Of a DNA stretch of 64,000 bases, positions 28,848-37,290 are shown piece after piece. The notes under the pieces were generated by a model. That model did no database searches. It had not been told where the DNA came from and saw nothing but the letters and a program-made list of their open reading frames with translations. Positions within the stretch are counted from its first letter, which is position 1, and each line of letters begins with the position of its first letter. Source of the stretch: Leucobacter weissii (GTDB lineage: Bacteria; Actinomycetota; Actinomycetes; Actinomycetales; Microbacteriaceae); contig NZ_JAGDYM010000013.1 in assembly GCF_017565745.1 (NCBI RefSeq), positions 62,001 to 126,000 of the forward strand, in the 5' to 3' direction. A program made the translations under genes and the position numbers.

Positions 28848-29609
28848 GTGACTCAGCCACTCGAATCAGGCCGACTCGAGGGCAAGCGCGCCCTCGTCAC
28901 CGGATCGTCGCGGGGGATCGGCGCGGATACGGTGCGCTATCTCGCGCGGGCCGGCGCCGACGTCGTGGTGAACTTCCGCAACAAGGCTCCGCGCGCGGAG
29001 AAGCTGGCAGCCGAGCTGCGCGAGTCGGGCGCTCGCGCGCTCGTGCAGGGCGCCGACCTGACCGATCCCGCCTCGCTCTCGGAGATGTTCGACGCGATCG
29101 CGCAGGAGTTCGGCGGGCTCGACCTCCTCGTCCTCAACGCCTCGGGCGGTATGGAGAGCGGGATGGGGGAGGACTACGCCCTCCGCCTGAACCGCGACGC
29201 GCAGCTGGCGGTGCTCGACGCCGCGCTGCCGCTGCTGGGAGAGGGATCCCGGGTGGTGTTCGTGACCAGCCACCAGGCCCACTTCATCCGCACGACCCCG
29301 ACCATGCCCGAGTACGAGCCGGTGGCGCTGTCCAAGCGCGCCGGGGAGGACGCGCTGCGCGCGCGCATCCCAGAGCTCGCCGATCGGGGGATCGAGTTCG
29401 TGGTGGTGTCGGGAGACATGATCGAGGGGACGGTGACGGCGACGATGCTGGAACGCGCCCGGCCCGGCGCCATCGAGGCGCGCCGAGAGTCGGCCGGGCG
29501 CCTCTACAACGTCTCGGAGTTCGCCTCCGAGGTCGCGCGGGCGGCGGTGGAGCCGGTCCCGGCCGACCACACTCGCCTCATCGGCGATACCTCCGGCTTC
29601 GTGGGCTGA
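28848..29609 (+). CDS. Short-chain dehydrogenase/reductase, atypical catalytic site
   Basis: A 253-residue SDR with nucleotide motif TGSSRGIGAD (residues 18-27) and LVLNASGG (the NNAG position). The active-site Ser region is VTSHQAHF. At the place of the YxxxK pair the sequence is YEPVALSKRAGE: the Lys is present but the residue four before it is Val, and the nearest Tyr is seven before, so the classical catalytic Tyr is displaced or missing. Actinobacterial paralogs with a similar YEPVAxSK segment exist as far as I recall. Reaction unknown. The GTG follows AGGAG (28838-28842). It is divergent from rbpA. Confidence 0.82.
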   Translation: MTQPLESGRLEGKRALVTGSSRGIGADTVRYLARAGADVVVNFRNKAPRAEKLAAELRESGARALVQGADLTDPASLSEMFDAIAQEFGGLDLLVLNASGGMESGMGEDYALRLNRDAQLAVLDAALPLLGEGSRVVFVTSHQAHFIRTTPTMPEYEPVALSKRAGEDALRARIPELADRGIEFVVVSGDMIEGTVTATMLERARPGAIEARRESAGRLYNVSEFASEVARAAVEPVPADHTRLIGDTSGFVG

Positions 29610-29630
29610 CGCTCGCGGCCTCGCCCCTGA

Positions 29631-29660
29631 CATCCGCCCGCAACGATCCCTCCGCGGATG
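29631..29660 (+). terminator. Stem-loop after the SDR gene
   Basis: CATCCGC and GCGGATG with a 16-base loop, 22 bases after the SDR stop; no T-run. Confidence 0.35.
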
Positions 29661-29860
29661 CGGGCCGGGCCGGGCCTCGGTCCGCGCCGGGCCGGAGCCT
29701 CCCGCGCAGCGGGTCTGGACGCGAGAGAGGCGGGCACGGCTGCGGCGACGGCCGGGCTGCAGCGCGCACCCGTCGACGGGGCAGTGTTACGGGAGTGTTT
29801 CGTGCGCTCCGCCTCTTCGGCGCAACAGGCCATCGGTCGCAGATTCTGCGGTAACGATGG

Positions 29861-29875
29861 CACTTGCGACAAGTG
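29861..29875. promoter_or_regulatory. Candidate operator of the gltB operon
   Basis: Perfect dyad CACTTG-CGA-CAAGTG, about 50 bases upstream of the likely -10 box; another ACTTGTG half site follows at 29885-29891. The pattern does not match the GlnR or AmtR boxes I know. Confidence 0.35.
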
Positions 29876-29923
29876 CTCGAAGAAAACTTGTGTTTTCATT
29901 CGTTCTGCCGAAGAAAGCGGTGC

Positions 29924-29929
29924 TACGCT
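29924..29929 (+). promoter_or_regulatory. Possible -10 box of the gltB operon
   Basis: TACGCT about 85 bases before the GTG at 30014, in the AT-richer part of the leader. TTCTGC at 29903-29908 could be a weak -35. Confidence 0.4.
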
Positions 29930-30013
29930 CGAATCTCCCTGTCAGGGCGTTTTGACGTGCCTCCGGCCCGGCATCGCCTCGGACACGGTCCGATATCCGT
30001 CGAGAGGACGCAT

Positions 30014-33000
30014 GTGACGCGAACGAACCCGAGCCCCCGGCCCGAACGCGCTGACGATGCCTTCGGGCTCTACGATCCTGGTGCGGAGCACAGCGCATGC
30101 GGGGTCGGGTTCATCACGCGCAAGGACGGGCGCCCGAGCCATGACGTGATCGTCAAGGGCGACGAGGCGCTGTGCTCGATTCCGCACCGCGGCGGCATGT
30201 CGTCGGAGGGCGTCGGCGACGGAGCCGGGGTCAGCCTGGACCTCTCCGTCGAGTTCTTCAGCGCGATCACCGGGCAGACCCTGCAGTCCGGGCTGTTCGG
30301 CGTCGGGAACTTCTTCCTGCCGACCGATCCGGCTTTCGAGCCGGAGGCCCGCGCGCTCATCGACCGGGCGATCGGGGAGCGCTTCGAGATCCTCCTCGTC
30401 CGCGAGGTGCCCGTCGACCATTCCGCCGCGAGGCCGGCCGCCGAGCGCTACCAGCTGCCGATCCTCCAGTGGGTGTTCCGATCGCCAGACGGCGAGGACC
30501 GCGCGGCCACCGACCGCGCCGCGAACGAGGCGCTGCTGGAGATCGAGCGCCGGGCCTTCAACGAGCCCGAGCTCGCGGGCCTCTATCCGCTCTCGCTGAG
30601 CGCGCGCACGCAGGTGCTCAAGGGCCGGCTCAATTCCGGCGAGGTGATCCCGTACTTCGTGGATCTCCGCGACGAGCGGCACTCCGTGCGCAGCCTCTAC
30701 TTCCACACCCGGTTCTCGACCAACACCGAGCCCCATCCGACGATGGCGCAGCCGTTCCGGATGCTGGCGCACAACGGCGAGCTCAACACCGACCGCAAGA
30801 ACCGGCTGAGCGACGACGCCCTCGCCCGCTCGAGGCATCGCAGCATCGTGCGGCCCGCGGGCCAGTCCGACAGCAGCCGGCTCGATCAGACGCTGCAGAG
30901 CCGCGTCTTCGACGACGGCCTGGACATCGTGGAGGCCGTCGTCTCGCTCATGCCGCCGGCGTGGGAGAACGACCGCTCGCTCTCGCAGCCGGTGCGCGAC
31001 ATGTTCGAGTTCTTCTCGCTCTACGAGGAGAAGAACGACGGCCCGGCCGCCGTGATCTTCTCCGACGGGGACGTCATCGGCGCGCGCCTCGACCGGCTCG
31101 GCCTGCGCCCCCTGCGGACCGTCGAGACGGAGGAGTACCTGGTGGTCTCCTCCGAGGCCGGCCAGATCGCCTTCGGCCCCGAGGAGATCGTGCACCGCGG
31201 CCGCATCGAGGCCGGGGGCATGCTCTACTTCGACCATCGCGAGGGTCGGAGCTACCGCACCGAGGACGCGCTGGAGAAGCTCGCCGCCCAGCGCGACTAC
31301 GGCGCGCTGCTGCGCGCGGCCATGGTGCGGATCGAGGAGCTCGACTCCGCCGTCTCGACGCGGGGTCCGAACACCCTCGGCTACGAGGGCGACCTGTCGC
31401 TCGGCGGCAGATACGTCTCGTACTCCCTGAACCAGGAGACCTTCCGGTTCATGATGGATCCGATGCTCGCGAACGGCGCGGAGCGGATCTCCGCGATGGG
31501 CTACGGCAACGCGATCAACGCGCTCTCCGACCACGAGGGCGGCATCTCGAAGTACTTCTCGCAGCGCTTCGCGCAGGTGACCAACCCGCCGCTCGACAGC
31601 ATCCGCGAGGCCGACGGCATGAGCATGCGGGTGGCGCTCGGCGCCAAGCCGGACGGGGGCGGAGCGGCCGACACGCAGATCGTGCTGGGCTCGCCCATTC
31701 TCGGCCATCTCGAGATGATCCGGCTGCGCGAGCAGCGGCTCGTGCCGCTCGAACGCTTCGACGCGCTCTACACGCCCGATTTCGCGGATCCGGAGAGGAA
31801 CGCCGCCGGGCTGCTGAGCGCGGTGCAGGAGCTCTGCGACGGCGTCGAGGCCTTCGCGCGCGACGGCGGCGGCATCGCGATCCTCACCGACCGGCAGATC
31901 TCCAGGGATCTCGCGCCCATCCCGCTCGTCATCGGCATCGCCGCGGTCAATCAGCGCCTGATCGAGACGGGGCTGCGGCTCCGGATCTCGGTGGTCATGG
32001 AGAGCGGCCAGATCTCGTCCTCGCACCACGTCGCTGTCGCGCTCGGCTTCGGCGCCTCGGCCGTGTACAGCATCAGCGCCCGTCTGCGCGCCGAGGAGCG
32101 CTATCCCAGCCCGGTCGGGCCGGCCGAGGACCTCACCGAGACGGACTCCGCGGTCGAGCGCTTCCGCAAGGCCGCCGAGAAGTCGCTCGCGAAGACGATG
32201 GGCCGGGTCGGCCTGTGCACCGTCGAGAGCTACATCGGGGGCGAGTTCTTCGAGCCGAACTACCTCGACACCAGGGATCCGGTGCTGGCGAAATGGTTCC
32301 CCCACCTGGACTCACCGGTCGGCGGCGTCGGTTTCGTGCGGATCGCCCAGGCCGCCACCGAGTGGCACCAGCGCGCCCGCTCCGTCGAGGACGACTCGCA
32401 GATCCCGCTGCTCGGACTGTTCAAGGAGCGCTCCGAGGGCGCCGGGCACTCCTACGGCACCGCCTCGGTGCGCGGATTCACCGCGCTCACCGAGGAACCG
32501 CCCGCTTTCGCGCCCAAGCCGCACGATCGCCACACCGCGCTCAGGCTGCTTACCGTGCATCAGCTGGAAGACGCCTTCGGCCTCGACGATCACGCCTACC
32601 GGGGCACGGGCTACGAGGAGCTGAGCGACAAGGCGATCGACCAGTTCCGGATCACCCAGGGCTACCGCGACTTCGTGGCGGCCACGAACCTCGAGCGCAC
32701 GCGGCGCCCCTCCGCGCTGCGCGACGTGCTGGCCCTGCCGGTCGACGTCACCGCGGCGCACACGCCGGAGGCCTTCGCCCGCGAGCTCGGCCGCTGCTCC
32801 GAGCTCGGCAACTCGAGCATCCTGGTCCGCGGCCTCGCCGTGGCGAAGACGGCGGACGCCGGCTACCGGCTCACCCTGACGAACGTGGTCGACAGCCTCG
32901 ATCAGCGCGTCGACGCGCTCCGGCAGTTCCTCGTCGAGGCTTACGGTCGGGAGCTGGTCGTCGAAGAGGTCGGCAGCGTCTCGCTCTCGGTGCGAGCCGA

Positions 33001-35566
33001 GGGCCGTGCGGCCGCCCTGCTCGAACTGCTCGGCGAGGCGCCGAACAGCATCGCGCTGTCGCAGGTCCAGCCGGCGCACGAGATCACGCGGACGCTCACC
33101 TCGGGAGCGATGAGCCACGGCGCGCTGGTCGCGAACGCGCACGAGGCGGTCGCCCACGGAGTGAACATGGTGGGCGGATTCTCGAACTGCGGCGAGGGCG
33201 GAGAGCACTACAGCCGCTACGGGACGATCCGAGGCTCGCGCATCAAGCAGTTCGCCTCGGCGCGCTTCGGCATCTGGGCCGGGTACCTCGCGGATCCGAT
33301 GCTCGAGGAGATCGAGATCAAGATGGGGCAGGGCGCGAAGCCGGGCGAGGGCGGGCAGCTGCCCGCGGCCAAGGTGACCGTCGACATCGCGGCCGCCCGC
33401 GGCGGCACGCCGGGCATCGAGCTGGTCTCGCCGCCGCCGCACCACGACACCTACTCCATCGAGGATCTGGCGCAGCTGATCCACGACTGCAAGGCGGCGC
33501 GGGTCCGGGTGATCGTCAAGCTCGTCTCGACGGAGGGGATCGGCACGATCGCCGTCGGCGTGGCGAAGGCCGGCGCCGACGTGATCAACGTCGCCGGGAA
33601 CACCGGCGGCACCGGCGCGGCGGCCGTGACCAGCCTCAAGTACGCCGGCCGCTCCGCGGAGATCGGCGTCGCCGAGGTGCACCAGGCGCTCGTCGCGAAC
33701 GGGCTGCGCGACAAGGTGGTCCTCCGCTGCTCGGGGGCCCACCAGACCGGCAGCGATGTGGTCACCTCGGCCCTGCTCGGCGCCGACAGCTTCGAGTTCG
33801 GCACCACCGCGCTGATGATGCTCAAGTGCGTCATGGCCAAGAACTGCAACATCAAGTGCCCGGCGGGCCTGACGACCAACTCGGAGGCCTTCGACGGGGA
33901 TCCCAGGGCCCTCGCGCAGTACCTCTTGAACATCGCCCACGAGATCCGCGAGATCCTCGCGCGACTGGGGCTGCGCTCGCTGCGCGAGGCGCGCGGGCGT
34001 TCGGATCTGCTGCAGCTGCTCGACCACCCCTCCGCCGTGGGGCGCCTCGACCTGCGCGCGATGCTCCGCGTGCTGCCCGAGCGCGTCGTGAACGATCCCG
34101 TCTACCTGGAGAAGGACTTCCGCACGGACGACGCCCTCATCGAGCGCGTGCGCGCAGCGCTCGTGGAGGGGAGGGAGGCGTCGCTCGCGGTCGACGGGGT
34201 CGAGCTCGGAAACAGCGACAAGTCGGTGGGCGCCCAGCTGTCGATCGACATCGAGCGGATGCTGAACTACGAGTTGATCGAGGACGCGGTCGCCGAGCTC
34301 CCCGCCGTGGTCGTCGACGATCGCGGGCGCAGACGGTTCGGCGACGGCGCGATCACCGTCAGCACCACCGGTTCCGCCGGGCAGTCCTTCGGCGCGTTCT
34401 GCAATGACGGCCTGATCCTGCAGCACACCGGCACCGCCAACGACGGCGTCGGGAAGGGGCAGTCCGGGGGCCGGATCGCGATCTGCTCGCCGGGGGGCGG
34501 CGCTCCGGGCCACGGCGGCAACGTGCTGATCGGCAACTTCGCCCTCTTCGGAGCCACCGGCGGACGCACCTTCGTCGCCGGAGATGCGGGCGACCGATTC
34601 GCGGTGCGCAACTCGGGCGCGACCGCGGTCGTGGAGGGCGTCGGCGACTTCGCCTGCGAGTACATGACCAACGGCGCGGTGCTCAACCTGGGCGGTTTCG
34701 GCACCGGCCTCGGCAACGGCATGAGCGGCGGGTTCGTCTACCAGTACGACCCGGAGGGCGCGCTCGAGGGCAGTTACAGCGCCGACTCGCTGCTCGTCCT
34801 GCCGCTCACCGACCCCGAGCACGGCGCCTACCACGAGCAGGCCATCCGGCTGATGCTCGAGTGGCACCTCGAGGCGACGGGGTCACCGCTCGCAGAACGT
34901 CTGCTCCGGGACTGGGAGCAGGAGCGCGCGCACTTCGTCTTCGGCATGCCGCGCGCGCTGCTGCTCTATCAGGACGCCGACGAGATCCTCGCCCAGAAGA
35001 CCCGCAAGGAGCTGCTGGACGAACTCGCCGAGTCGCTCGCGAAGGACAAGCTGCGCAGCTTCAAGCAGGACTACCGCGACCACCGGATGGTGCTCGGCGG
35101 GCGCGCACCGAGCTTCGGGGAGGGCAGCGTGGCCGACAAGTTCTCTCTCCTCTCGTCGTTCGCCGTGCTCGCCTTCGCCCAGCAGATCGCGCTGGAGCGG
35201 GTGCCCGGAGCCACCGAGCACTCCGATCCTCGCGTCCTCGACGCGGTGCGGAAGCTCATCCTCACCGAGGACTTCGCCGTGATGCAGAAGGTGCTCGGAT
35301 ATCTGCGGCGCACGCTGGACGACTTCGGCGATGCGGAGCTGGCGACGCTCATCGCCGTGAAGCGGCTCGACGACTACAAGCGCTCGCTCGCCATGCGGAA
35401 CGTCCGGGGCATGGACGCGCCCGGCACCTACGGCTGGATCCTCCATCAGGACGCCAAGAACGCCGATCGCACCCGGTCGGCGAGATTCGACGAGCTGCTG
35501 GCCACCGCCGCCCTCGACGACATCTCCGCGAGGGTGCTGCAGACCACCGAGCAGGGGGCGCGATGA
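30014..35566 (+). CDS. gltB: Long glutamate synthase-like protein, large subunit
   Basis: An 1850-residue homolog of GltB, which makes two glutamates from glutamine and 2-oxoglutarate. The usual GltB has about 1500 residues. Domains: class II amidotransferase with nucleophile Cys29 (HSACGVGF, after a removable propeptide) and HRGG; central domain about 420-750; FMN (beta/alpha)8 domain about 1010-1330 with QGAKPGEGGQLP and NVAGNTGGTG; GXGXG helix domain about 1490-1580. Differences: about 130 extra residues before the FMN domain, an extra helical C-terminus (about 1680-1850), and cluster cysteines 1272, 1278 and 1282, spaced C-x5-C-x3-C rather than C-x5-C-x4-C. No gltD follows; a diflavin reductase gene overlaps the stop. 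Start GTG 30014 follows GAGAGG; the frame is open upstream. Confidence 0.88.
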   Translation: MTRTNPSPRPERADDAFGLYDPGAEHSACGVGFITRKDGRPSHDVIVKGDEALCSIPHRGGMSSEGVGDGAGVSLDLSVEFFSAITGQTLQSGLFGVGNFFLPTDPAFEPEARALIDRAIGERFEILLVREVPVDHSAARPAAERYQLPILQWVFRSPDGEDRAATDRAANEALLEIERRAFNEPELAGLYPLSLSARTQVLKGRLNSGEVIPYFVDLRDERHSVRSLYFHTRFSTNTEPHPTMAQPFRMLAHNGELNTDRKNRLSDDALARSRHRSIVRPAGQSDSSRLDQTLQSRVFDDGLDIVEAVVSLMPPAWENDRSLSQPVRDMFEFFSLYEEKNDGPAAVIFSDGDVIGARLDRLGLRPLRTVETEEYLVVSSEAGQIAFGPEEIVHRGRIEAGGMLYFDHREGRSYRTEDALEKLAAQRDYGALLRAAMVRIEELDSAVSTRGPNTLGYEGDLSLGGRYVSYSLNQETFRFMMDPMLANGAERISAMGYGNAINALSDHEGGISKYFSQRFAQVTNPPLDSIREADGMSMRVALGAKPDGGGAADTQIVLGSPILGHLEMIRLREQRLVPLERFDALYTPDFADPERNAAGLLSAVQELCDGVEAFARDGGGIAILTDRQISRDLAPIPLVIGIAAVNQRLIETGLRLRISVVMESGQISSSHHVAVALGFGASAVYSISARLRAEERYPSPVGPAEDLTETDSAVERFRKAAEKSLAKTMGRVGLCTVESYIGGEFFEPNYLDTRDPVLAKWFPHLDSPVGGVGFVRIAQAATEWHQRARSVEDDSQIPLLGLFKERSEGAGHSYGTASVRGFTALTEEPPAFAPKPHDRHTALRLLTVHQLEDAFGLDDHAYRGTGYEELSDKAIDQFRITQGYRDFVAATNLERTRRPSALRDVLALPVDVTAAHTPEAFARELGRCSELGNSSILVRGLAVAKTADAGYRLTLTNVVDSLDQRVDALRQFLVEAYGRELVVEEVGSVSLSVRAEGRAAALLELLGEAPNSIALSQVQPAHEITRTLTSGAMSHGALVANAHEAVAHGVNMVGGFSNCGEGGEHYSRYGTIRGSRIKQFASARFGIWAGYLADPMLEEIEIKMGQGAKPGEGGQLPAAKVTVDIAAARGGTPGIELVSPPPHHDTYSIEDLAQLIHDCKAARVRVIVKLVSTEGIGTIAVGVAKAGADVINVAGNTGGTGAAAVTSLKYAGRSAEIGVAEVHQALVANGLRDKVVLRCSGAHQTGSDVVTSALLGADSFEFGTTALMMLKCVMAKNCNIKCPAGLTTNSEAFDGDPRALAQYLLNIAHEIREILARLGLRSLREARGRSDLLQLLDHPSAVGRLDLRAMLRVLPERVVNDPVYLEKDFRTDDALIERVRAALVEGREASLAVDGVELGNSDKSVGAQLSIDIERMLNYELIEDAVAELPAVVVDDRGRRRFGDGAITVSTTGSAGQSFGAFCNDGLILQHTGTANDGVGKGQSGGRIAICSPGGGAPGHGGNVLIGNFALFGATGGRTFVAGDAGDRFAVRNSGATAVVEGVGDFACEYMTNGAVLNLGGFGTGLGNGMSGGFVYQYDPEGALEGSYSADSLLVLPLTDPEHGAYHEQAIRLMLEWHLEATGSPLAERLLRDWEQERAHFVFGMPRALLLYQDADEILAQKTRKELLDELAESLAKDKLRSFKQDYRDHRMVLGGRAPSFGEGSVADKFSLLSSFAVLAFAQQIALERVPGATEHSDPRVLDAVRKLILTEDFAVMQKVLGYLRRTLDDFGDAELATLIAVKRLDDYKRSLAMRNVRGMDAPGTYGWILHQDAKNADRTRSARFDELLATAALDDISARVLQTTEQGAR

Positions 35567-37290
35567 ACGGGCTGTACATTCCGGCGGACGCGCCCTTCAC
35601 CCAGGAGCAGGAGGCCTGGCTCACCGGGTTCTTTCTCGGCATCGCGGCGAACAAGAGCGTCGATCAGTCGAGCAGCGCCCCGGCGCTGACCGTGCACGTG
35701 CTCTACGGCTCCCAGACGGGCAACGCGGAGGGCATCGCGAACGATCTCGCCGCCACGGCACGCACCCGCGGCATCCTGATGCCGGTGCGCGCGCTCGACG
35801 ACGTGCCCACCGAGGAGCTCGCCGAACTCTCGACCGTCATCGTGATCACCTCCACCTACGGCGAGGGGGAGATGCCCGACAACGCCGAGCTCTTCTGGAG
35901 CTCGCTCGAGTCGGCCGGTCACCCCCGCCTGGAGCAGCTGCGCTTCGCCGTGCTCTCGCTCGGCGACAGCGGCTACGACGATTTCTGCCAGGCCGGCCGG
36001 CTGATCGATCTCCGTCTCGAACAGCTGGGGGCCGCGCGCCTGCACCCGAGGGTGGACTGCGACGTCGACTTCGAGGAGCCTGCGGAGGGCTGGATCTCCG
36101 AGCTCGTGGCCCGGCTCGCGGCCGAGGCGCCCGAGGCTGACGCGCTGCCGGCCCCGACCGGCGCCGTGCCCGTCCAGAAACCGGCCACCTGGACGAGGAA
36201 GCGTCCCTACGAGTCCCGGCTGGTCGAGAATCGGGTGCTCTCCGGGACGGGCAGCACCAAGGAGATCCGTCACTTCGAGTTCGCGCTCGGGGACAGCGGG
36301 ATCGAGTACGCGGCGGGCGACGCCTTCGGCGTGGTGCCGGTCAACGACCCGGTGCTCGTCGACCGCCTCATCGCCGAGCTGGGCCTCCGCCCGGATCACG
36401 AGATCGAGGGGCTGCCGCTCGTGCACCATCTCGGGCGGAAGGCCGAGATCGTCACTCCCTCGCGGGAGCTGCTCGCGCTGGTCGCCGAGCTCTTCCCCGA
36501 CAGCGAGCCCGGCCGCCTCCTCGCGCGCGGCCAGCGCGAAGGCCTGGACGAGTGGCTGTGGGGCAAGGACACGCTCGACATCGTCCTGAGCACGGGCATG
36601 AAGCTGGGCGCCGAGGAGTTCGTCGCGCTGCTGCGTCCGCTGCAGCCGCGCGCATACTCCATCTCGTCGAGCCCGCTGCACAGCCCCGATCGGATCCACC
36701 TCACCGTCGCCTCCGTGCGCTACGGGGCGGACCGGCCGCACGGGGGCGTCTGCTCGACCTTCCTGGCGGATCGTCTGGGCGCGGACGAGCCCGTCGGCGT
36801 GTTCCTGCAGCCCAACGCCGCCTTCCGACTGCCCGAGGACGGCGACGTGCCGGTCATCATGGTCGGACCCGGCACGGGGGTCGCCCCCTTCCGCGGCTTC
36901 GTCCAGGAGCGCGCCGCCATGGGCGCGACGGGGAGGAACTGGCTGTTCTTCGGAGACCAGCACCGCTCGAGCGACTTCATCTACGAGGACGAGCTCGGCG
37001 CCTGGGCCGAATCCGGGGTGCTGACCAGGCTCGACCTCGCGTTCTCCCGCGACCAGCGCGAGAAGGTCTACGTGCAGACCCGGATGCAGGAGAGCGGGGC
37101 CGAGCTGTACGCCTGGCTCGAGGAGGGCGCGCACCTCTACGTGTGCGGCGACGCCTCGCGGATGGCGAAGGACGTGGACGCGGCGCTGCATCGGATCGTC
37201 GCCGAGCAGCGCGGGCGCGGCGACGACGATGCGGCCGAGTACGTGTCGTCGCTCAAGCGGGGGAAGCGCTACCTCCGCGACGTCTACTGA
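35563..37290 (+). CDS. CysJ-like NADPH diflavin reductase
   Basis: A 575-residue protein. After an N-terminal piece (IPADAPFTQEQEAWLTGFF) comes a flavodoxin-type FMN domain (GSQTGNAEG 49-57, STYGEGEMPDNA, LGDSGYDDFC), then an FAD/connecting domain (PRAYSISSSP, GGVCSTFL) and an NADPH domain (GPGTGVAPFRGF, FFGDQHRSSDF, VCGDASRMAKDV), ending in RYLRDVY like CysJ. This is the plan of sulfite reductase flavoprotein, which moves electrons NADPH-FAD-FMN-partner. No sulfite reductase haemoprotein gene is near. The ATG overlaps the gltB stop (ATGA), so the likely partner is the long GltB-like protein. That pairing is my inference. Confidence 0.88.
   Translation: MNGLYIPADAPFTQEQEAWLTGFFLGIAANKSVDQSSSAPALTVHVLYGSQTGNAEGIANDLAATARTRGILMPVRALDDVPTEELAELSTVIVITSTYGEGEMPDNAELFWSSLESAGHPRLEQLRFAVLSLGDSGYDDFCQAGRLIDLRLEQLGAARLHPRVDCDVDFEEPAEGWISELVARLAAEAPEADALPAPTGAVPVQKPATWTRKRPYESRLVENRVLSGTGSTKEIRHFEFALGDSGIEYAAGDAFGVVPVNDPVLVDRLIAELGLRPDHEIEGLPLVHHLGRKAEIVTPSRELLALVAELFPDSEPGRLLARGQREGLDEWLWGKDTLDIVLSTGMKLGAEEFVALLRPLQPRAYSISSSPLHSPDRIHLTVASVRYGADRPHGGVCSTFLADRLGADEPVGVFLQPNAAFRLPEDGDVPVIMVGPGTGVAPFRGFVQERAAMGATGRNWLFFGDQHRSSDFIYEDELGAWAESGVLTRLDLAFSRDQREKVYVQTRMQESGAELYAWLEEGAHLYVCGDASRMAKDVDAALHRIVAEQRGRGDDDAAEYVSSLKRGKRYLRDVY

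Follow-up and report, generated by a model that had tools for sequence, protein, structure and literature searches.

The 64,000-nucleotide stretch of the Leucobacter weissii genome analysed here (contig NZ_JAGDYM010000013.1, positions 62,001 to 126,000; hereafter the window) contains a gene for a long homologue of the glutamate synthase protein GltB, overlapped at its end by a gene encoding a diflavin reductase. Sequence comparison indicates that this pair is probably a glutamate synthase (GOGAT) dependent on reduced nicotinamide adenine dinucleotide phosphate (NADPH), in which the diflavin reductase stands in the place of GltD, and which in most relatives would be an isozyme for iron starvation. 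GOGAT is a major point of nitrogen entry into metabolism and, to our knowledge, its electron sources are of two kinds, GltD and ferredoxin. A preliminary description of the window had reported a GltB homolog of 1850 residues sharing an ATGA overlap with a complete reductase for flavin mononucleotide (FMN), flavin adenine dinucleotide (FAD) and NADPH, and had proposed that this reductase supplies the GltB-like subunit instead of GltD. The gene structure was borne out by the coordinates and by Pfam (Table 1), and the proposal gains support from the lack of any NIR_SIR protein (the sulfite/nitrite reductase haemoprotein) in the genome and from the constancy of the pairing.

The window GltB possesses all four domains of the GltB superfamily together with the N-terminal cysteine nucleophile (Pfam and motif check), and it retains the three-cysteine iron-sulfur (Fe-S) motif, but with spacing x5,x3 rather than x5,x4. 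The C-terminal extension matched no Pfam family and no fold in the PDB at E <= 0.001 (best E 0.99); the structure alignment of the larger model covers mainly model residues 35-577, so that the extension lies outside its scope. In the reductase, the domain order FMN-FAD-NADPH is that of CysJ (Pfam, PDB comparison). Its score exceeds the NCBIfam cut-off for 'sulfite reductase subunit alpha' (460 vs 432 bits) and falls below that of TIGR01931 (596 vs 668 bits), and its closest relative in the PDB is a sulfite reductase flavoprotein. The first and last of these likenesses would be expected if the protein were the CysJ of a sulfite reductase encoded elsewhere, placed beside gltB by chance. This explanation is extremely improbable, as NIR_SIR found no match in the genome of L. 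weissii, nor in 13 others of 46 (the set also used for GltD and canonical GltB, drawn from 43 of the 74 named loci with G000, G344 and G354 added), and the pairing is constant; a role in sulfite reduction was consequently rejected. The preliminary description had noted no gltD or sulfite reductase haemoprotein gene nearby, and had named a cysI elsewhere without a flavoprotein of its own as contrary evidence; the absence extends to the genome assembly, with no TIGR01317 match above the cut-off and no NIR_SIR protein.

The own genome assembly comprises 3.37 Mb and is 98% complete. The window GltB is its sole full-length GltB, and the best match to the GltD profile reached 74 bits and covered positions 145-301 of the 485 in the profile. 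GltD was above the cut-off in 44 of the 46 genomes, the exceptions being L. weissii and Streptomyces sp. GQFP (L048), and no canonical GltB was seen in these two either. Genes of the glutamine synthetase type were found in the L. weissii genome. Among 36 genomes of the same genus, 35 matched the window GltB, with 44-48% identity where the synthase domain was matched, and none of the matches reached the C-terminal extension. As no other full-length GltB and no GltD were found and the matches within the genus do not reach the extension, it is probable that the gene of the window has displaced the usual GltB or outlasted it. No iron control is visible in this genome, and it offers no GOGAT candidate besides the pair. 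As a separate observation, a second GltD above the cut-off was present in Streptomyces G455, G458, G459, G460 and G461, with no full-length GltB match listed nearby, so that these copies are orphan gltD genes.

A diflavin homologue lies directly downstream of the long GltB in all 74 named loci, which had been found through the C-terminal extension. The same arrangement was seen in 9/9 further loci (four actinobacterial genomes, a Tsukamurella plasmid and four plasmids of alphaproteobacteria; nine plasmid records carry the long GltB, of which five were examined), giving 83 of 83 paired loci spanning Actinomycetota and Pseudomonadota. The genes overlap by 4 bases in 43/74 loci, and the called gap ranges from -38 to +68 bases in 72/74, the remaining two having broken frames. 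Broken reading frames were present in the reductase of L042, L094 and L112, in L112 also in GltB, due to sequencing error or decay; these three loci were counted as paired from tblastn pieces and their gene-called gaps are unreliable. The distances of GltB and reductase run parallel across 67 loci (r = 0.98, kinship not corrected). When the search was started from the reductase in 394 genomes of the class, the four best matches besides its own all adjoined a long GltB, and the next ones opened did not, being stand-alone reductases or a NasN-type nitrate reductase fusion. Near canonical gltB, neither reductase nor extension was present (0/11 loci). The pairing is not due to chance, and the survey of long GltB neighbourhoods that the preliminary description had suggested revealed none of the inconsistent pairing that it regarded as contrary evidence.

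The long GltBs differ from the canonical ones in several characters. The insert region (800-1012) has a median of 219 aa against 64 aa in canonical proteins, and the C-terminal extension 206 aa against 37 aa; one canonical sequence, L129, misread as an antisense frame, is retained in these medians and excluded from the cysteine count. The cysteine spacing is x5,x3 in 70/70 aligned long GltBs vs x5,x4 in 10/10 canonical ones, and x5,x3 also in every one of the 237 database proteins listed that exceed 1600 aa. Near the N-terminus, CGVG is found in 228 of 236 listed proteins over 1700 aa, the other 8 starting downstream of the motif. When a tree was built from the synthase domain, 25 long and 15 canonical actinobacterial sequences fell on opposite sides of one branch with support 100/100; in this tree the long GltBs thus make up a separate clade. 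The best 120 of 454 protein matches include Streptomyces, Curtobacterium, Microbacterium, Herbiconiux and Kineococcus, and the best 120 of 501 add Mycolicibacterium, Mycobacteroides, Nocardia, Rhodococcus, Rhizobium, Shinella, Agrobacterium and Methylobacillus. Within the phylum the long GltB is rare: of 396 genomes drawn evenly from it 5 matched, clearly in L. weissii and two others and weakly in two more, which were left uncounted (G320, a fragment at a contig end, and G174, whose weak match has neither the extension nor a reductase). The long GltB of Gordonia jacobaea (L109) has no counterpart of roughly the second half of the insert, so that half may be dispensable. Separately, 17 'phage' records of the phage collection (H41-H57) match canonical GltB, probably through bacterial DNA inside the records.

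The proposed relation to iron, which is new with respect to the preliminary description, comes only from the relatives. In 28/70 regions a predicted DtxR/IdeR-type box with <= 5 mismatches precedes the long gltB at a distance of up to about 500 bases, against 10/1400 single-base shuffles (none at <= 4) and 0/198 windows elsewhere in the loci, a comparison weakened by an assumed consensus, by shuffles that preserve single bases only and by the mutual relatedness of the loci. Upstream of canonical gltB (n=11, one of uncertain frame) the best box had 7 mismatches. For four further long gltB genes of the Mycobacteriales, the box shows 3 mismatches in L169, L170 and Tsukamurella and 4 in L176. The exact core of the box occurs 48 times in 13/16 genomes and its reversed control is absent from 16/16; 11 of the 48 sites lie at a long gltB by coordinate matching, which is no unbiased rate because the 16 genomes were mostly picked for showing the box. 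Ten proteins beside other box sites were picked by hand from 18 neighbours, around 11 sites in four genomes: seven belong to iron or haem uptake or haem degradation (Peripla_BP_2, HtaA, FecCD, haem oxygenase) and one is an aconitase.

In addition, a HemS-like gene directly follows the reductase in 32/74 loci (profile search; Pfam), and a box with <= 6 mismatches was detected in 27/28 loci with this gene vs 10/41 without it (kinship not corrected). Siderophore-uptake genes stand beside the pair in three loci: in L041 it is followed by genes for an esterase, for two FecCD permeases and for an ABC ATPase, in L042 by FecCD pieces, and a TonB-dependent siderophore receptor and an Fhu-type transporter accompany it on a Ketogulonicigenium vulgare plasmid. 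None of the four alphaproteobacterial loci contained a DtxR-type box (7 to 9 mismatches), as expected if other iron regulators are used there. The boxes and the HemS-like or siderophore neighbours of these relatives suggest that the pair is an isozyme which spares iron by dispensing with the [4Fe-4S] clusters, two in number, of GltD. Regarding other genes around the pair, neighbours were seen for part of the loci. Genes of the mevalonate type were recognized, by sequence reading, within about 10 kb on either side in L042, L066, L079, L085, L088 and L098. A search for further shared neighbours (17 loci and the window) gave clusters made up mostly of the mevalonate-type genes of six loci and of antisense frames, and was set aside.

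We propose that electrons would pass from NADPH to FAD and FMN within the reductase, and from the reductase FMN to the three-cysteine Fe-S cluster and the FMN of the long GltB. Ammonia would be freed from glutamine by the glutaminase domain, as in known glutamate synthases, and the imine of 2-oxoglutarate and ammonia would be reduced at the FMN site of GltB. The chemistry of this path is modelled on that of GltBD, ferredoxin GOGAT and CysIJ. Insert and C-terminal extension may provide the docking surface for the reductase, a proposal based on their presence in the reductase-paired GltBs and their absence from the canonical ones compared. The relatives mostly keep a canonical gltBD, and in them the pair is probably an isozyme that iron starvation induces. 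Its predicted requirement is a single Fe-S cluster (3 Fe), against three (11 Fe) in GltBD; the difference corresponds to the pair of [4Fe-4S] clusters in GltD, and the exchange would thus save 8 of 11 iron atoms. We lean, by a modest degree, towards a wider interpretation, namely a third, diflavin-dependent class of GOGAT present in two phyla, a low-iron isozyme replacing the 8-iron GltD by an iron-free flavoprotein, regulated by iron together with haem and siderophore uptake, which displaced GltBD in the organism of the window.

The same neighbourhoods allow other explanations. The long GltB might be a GOGAT that takes its electrons from free ferredoxin or flavodoxin, the reductase being a co-transcribed enzyme of iron starvation that serves a different acceptor, for instance a ferric siderophore or haem bound to the HemS-like protein; the HemS-like gene that follows in 32 of the 74 loci, and the siderophore genes in three, would agree with it. 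Nevertheless, 42/74 loci and the window have no HemS-like gene adjoining the pair and yet the pair is constant, and the insert and extension accompany the reductase, 11/11 canonical gltB loci being without both. We consider this alternative unlikely. Somewhat less likely still is a GOGAT-like enzyme with another substrate, serving iron or siderophore metabolism, to which one could ascribe the deep branch apart from canonical GltB, the changed cysteine spacing, the iron-gene neighbours and a score slightly below the NCBI cut-off for GltB (1020.1 vs 1047 bits for equivalog PRK11750).

Several observations weigh against an NADPH-dependent GOGAT controlled by iron. No box with <= 3 mismatches exists in the window and no exact core site in its genome, and no HemS-like gene neighbours the window pair; elsewhere in that genome the HemS profile gave no match, a profile that missed a gene found by tblastn in two Streptomyces genomes. 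The Curtobacterium loci measured were all without a box (>= 7 mismatches) and none had a HemS-like gene, and no iron genes surround the pair on two annotated rhizobial plasmids. The iron story concerns the other relatives, and not the window or Curtobacterium. Where a HemS-like gene does adjoin the pair, it leaves room for a haem-linked role of the reductase. As for the enzyme, the shortened cysteine spacing could reflect an altered cluster; for the synthase half, AlphaFold2 gave a model with a predicted local distance difference test score (pLDDT) < 50 at the cysteine motif (model residues 490-510). Furthermore, the L. weissii genome encodes a glutamate dehydrogenase, so that glutamate can form without GOGAT and the loss of GltBD alone is no proof of a GOGAT function, and it holds two additional diflavin reductases.

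The second diflavin reductase of this genome (G000:C25:140925-142529, L123) is 41% identical to that of the window and is located between two frames of the glutamine synthetase type; the third (G000:C20:114846-116477, L124) is 46% identical and close to transporter-like frames. In the window, the pair is flanked by a short-chain dehydrogenase upstream and a DUF7059 methyltransferase downstream, which have no bearing on function.

Table 1. Features of the GltB-reductase pair and its upstream region, numbered from the first base of the window; residues are those of the encoded protein.
Feature	Positions	Strand	Basis
Upstream region tested for iron box: none, best 9 mismatches	29514..30073	+	box scan
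Long GltB-type gene, 1850 aa, GTG start at 30014, stop 35564-35566	30014..35566	+	ORF and domain search
Glutaminase domain GATase_2, residues 29-430, nucleophile motif CGVGF at residue 29	30098..31303	+	Pfam
Glu_syn_central domain, residues 469-747	31418..32254	+	Pfam
Insert separating central and synthase domains, about residues 815-1000, absent from canonical GltB	32456..33013	+	alignment
FMN/Fe-S synthase domain (Glu_synthase), residues 1001-1320	33014..33973	+	Pfam
Fe-S cysteine motif C1272-x5-C1278-x3-C1282 (canonical GltB: x5, x4)	33827..33859	+	alignment
GXGXG domain, residues 1431-1596	34304..34801	+	Pfam
C-terminal extension, about residues 1646-1850, all-helical by prediction	34949..35563	+	alignment, predicted structure
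ATGA overlap of reductase start codon and GltB stop codon	35563..35566	+	sequence
Diflavin reductase gene, 575 aa, ATG at 35563	35563..37290	+	ORF and domain search
Flavodoxin (FMN) domain, Flavodoxin_1, residues 46-173	35698..36081	+	Pfam
FAD-binding domain (FAD_binding_1), matched in two stretches	36196..36762	+	Pfam
NADPH-binding domain (NAD_binding_1), residues 433-538	36859..37176	+	Pfam

No description of a GltB-diflavin reductase pair was found in the accessible text of the open-licence literature, and a 2022 review on diflavin reductases contains 0 mentions of glutamate synthase or GOGAT. If the proposed function is true, many 'sulfite reductase subunit alpha' proteins encoded beside a 'glutamate synthase-related protein' would need re-annotation, and nitrogen assimilation would be tied to the iron supply through an exchange of isozymes, akin to the replacement of ferredoxin by flavodoxin. 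The pair also offers a simple two-protein enzyme open to direct testing.

The pair can be compared with several known systems. With NADPH-GOGAT GltBD (PDB 2vdc, 6s6s, 7mfm) it shares the four-domain core of GltB and, likely, NADPH as the source; it differs in having a diflavin partner and no GltD, and in the insert, the extension and the x5,x3 spacing of its GltB. Ferredoxin-dependent GOGAT (PDB 1ofd, 1llw) has the same core and likewise uses an electron carrier instead of GltD, whereas the carrier of the pair would be a flavodoxin domain that comes joined with an NADPH reductase of its own and is encoded together with gltB. The layout of FMN, FAD and NADPH domains and a CysJ-like N-terminus are common to the reductase and to CysJ of NADPH-sulfite reductase (PDB 6efv), but its partner is GltB and not CysI, and the TIGR01931 cut-off is missed. 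NasN-type nitrate reductases are among the nearest sequence relatives of the reductase (44-48% identical), and the diflavin module of NasN feeds an assimilatory nitrate reductase (PMC7816997). A fusion of this type was seen in L177, where the diflavin module is joined to a nitrogen-assimilation enzyme holding an Fe-S domain. There the module is fused to a molybdopterin enzyme, while the reductase of the pair is a separate gene beside gltB; by analogy, NasN is a precedent within the same reductase lineage. Finally, under iron shortage GOGAT is described as turned down in B. subtilis through FsrA (PMC7430163) and in Caulobacter (PMC3751524), and in S. aureus it is a predicted target of IsrR (PMC9410917). 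These iron-sparing responses and the pair have in common the view of GOGAT as an iron-costly enzyme, but in the former the enzyme is lowered, whereas here an alternative isozyme would replace it.

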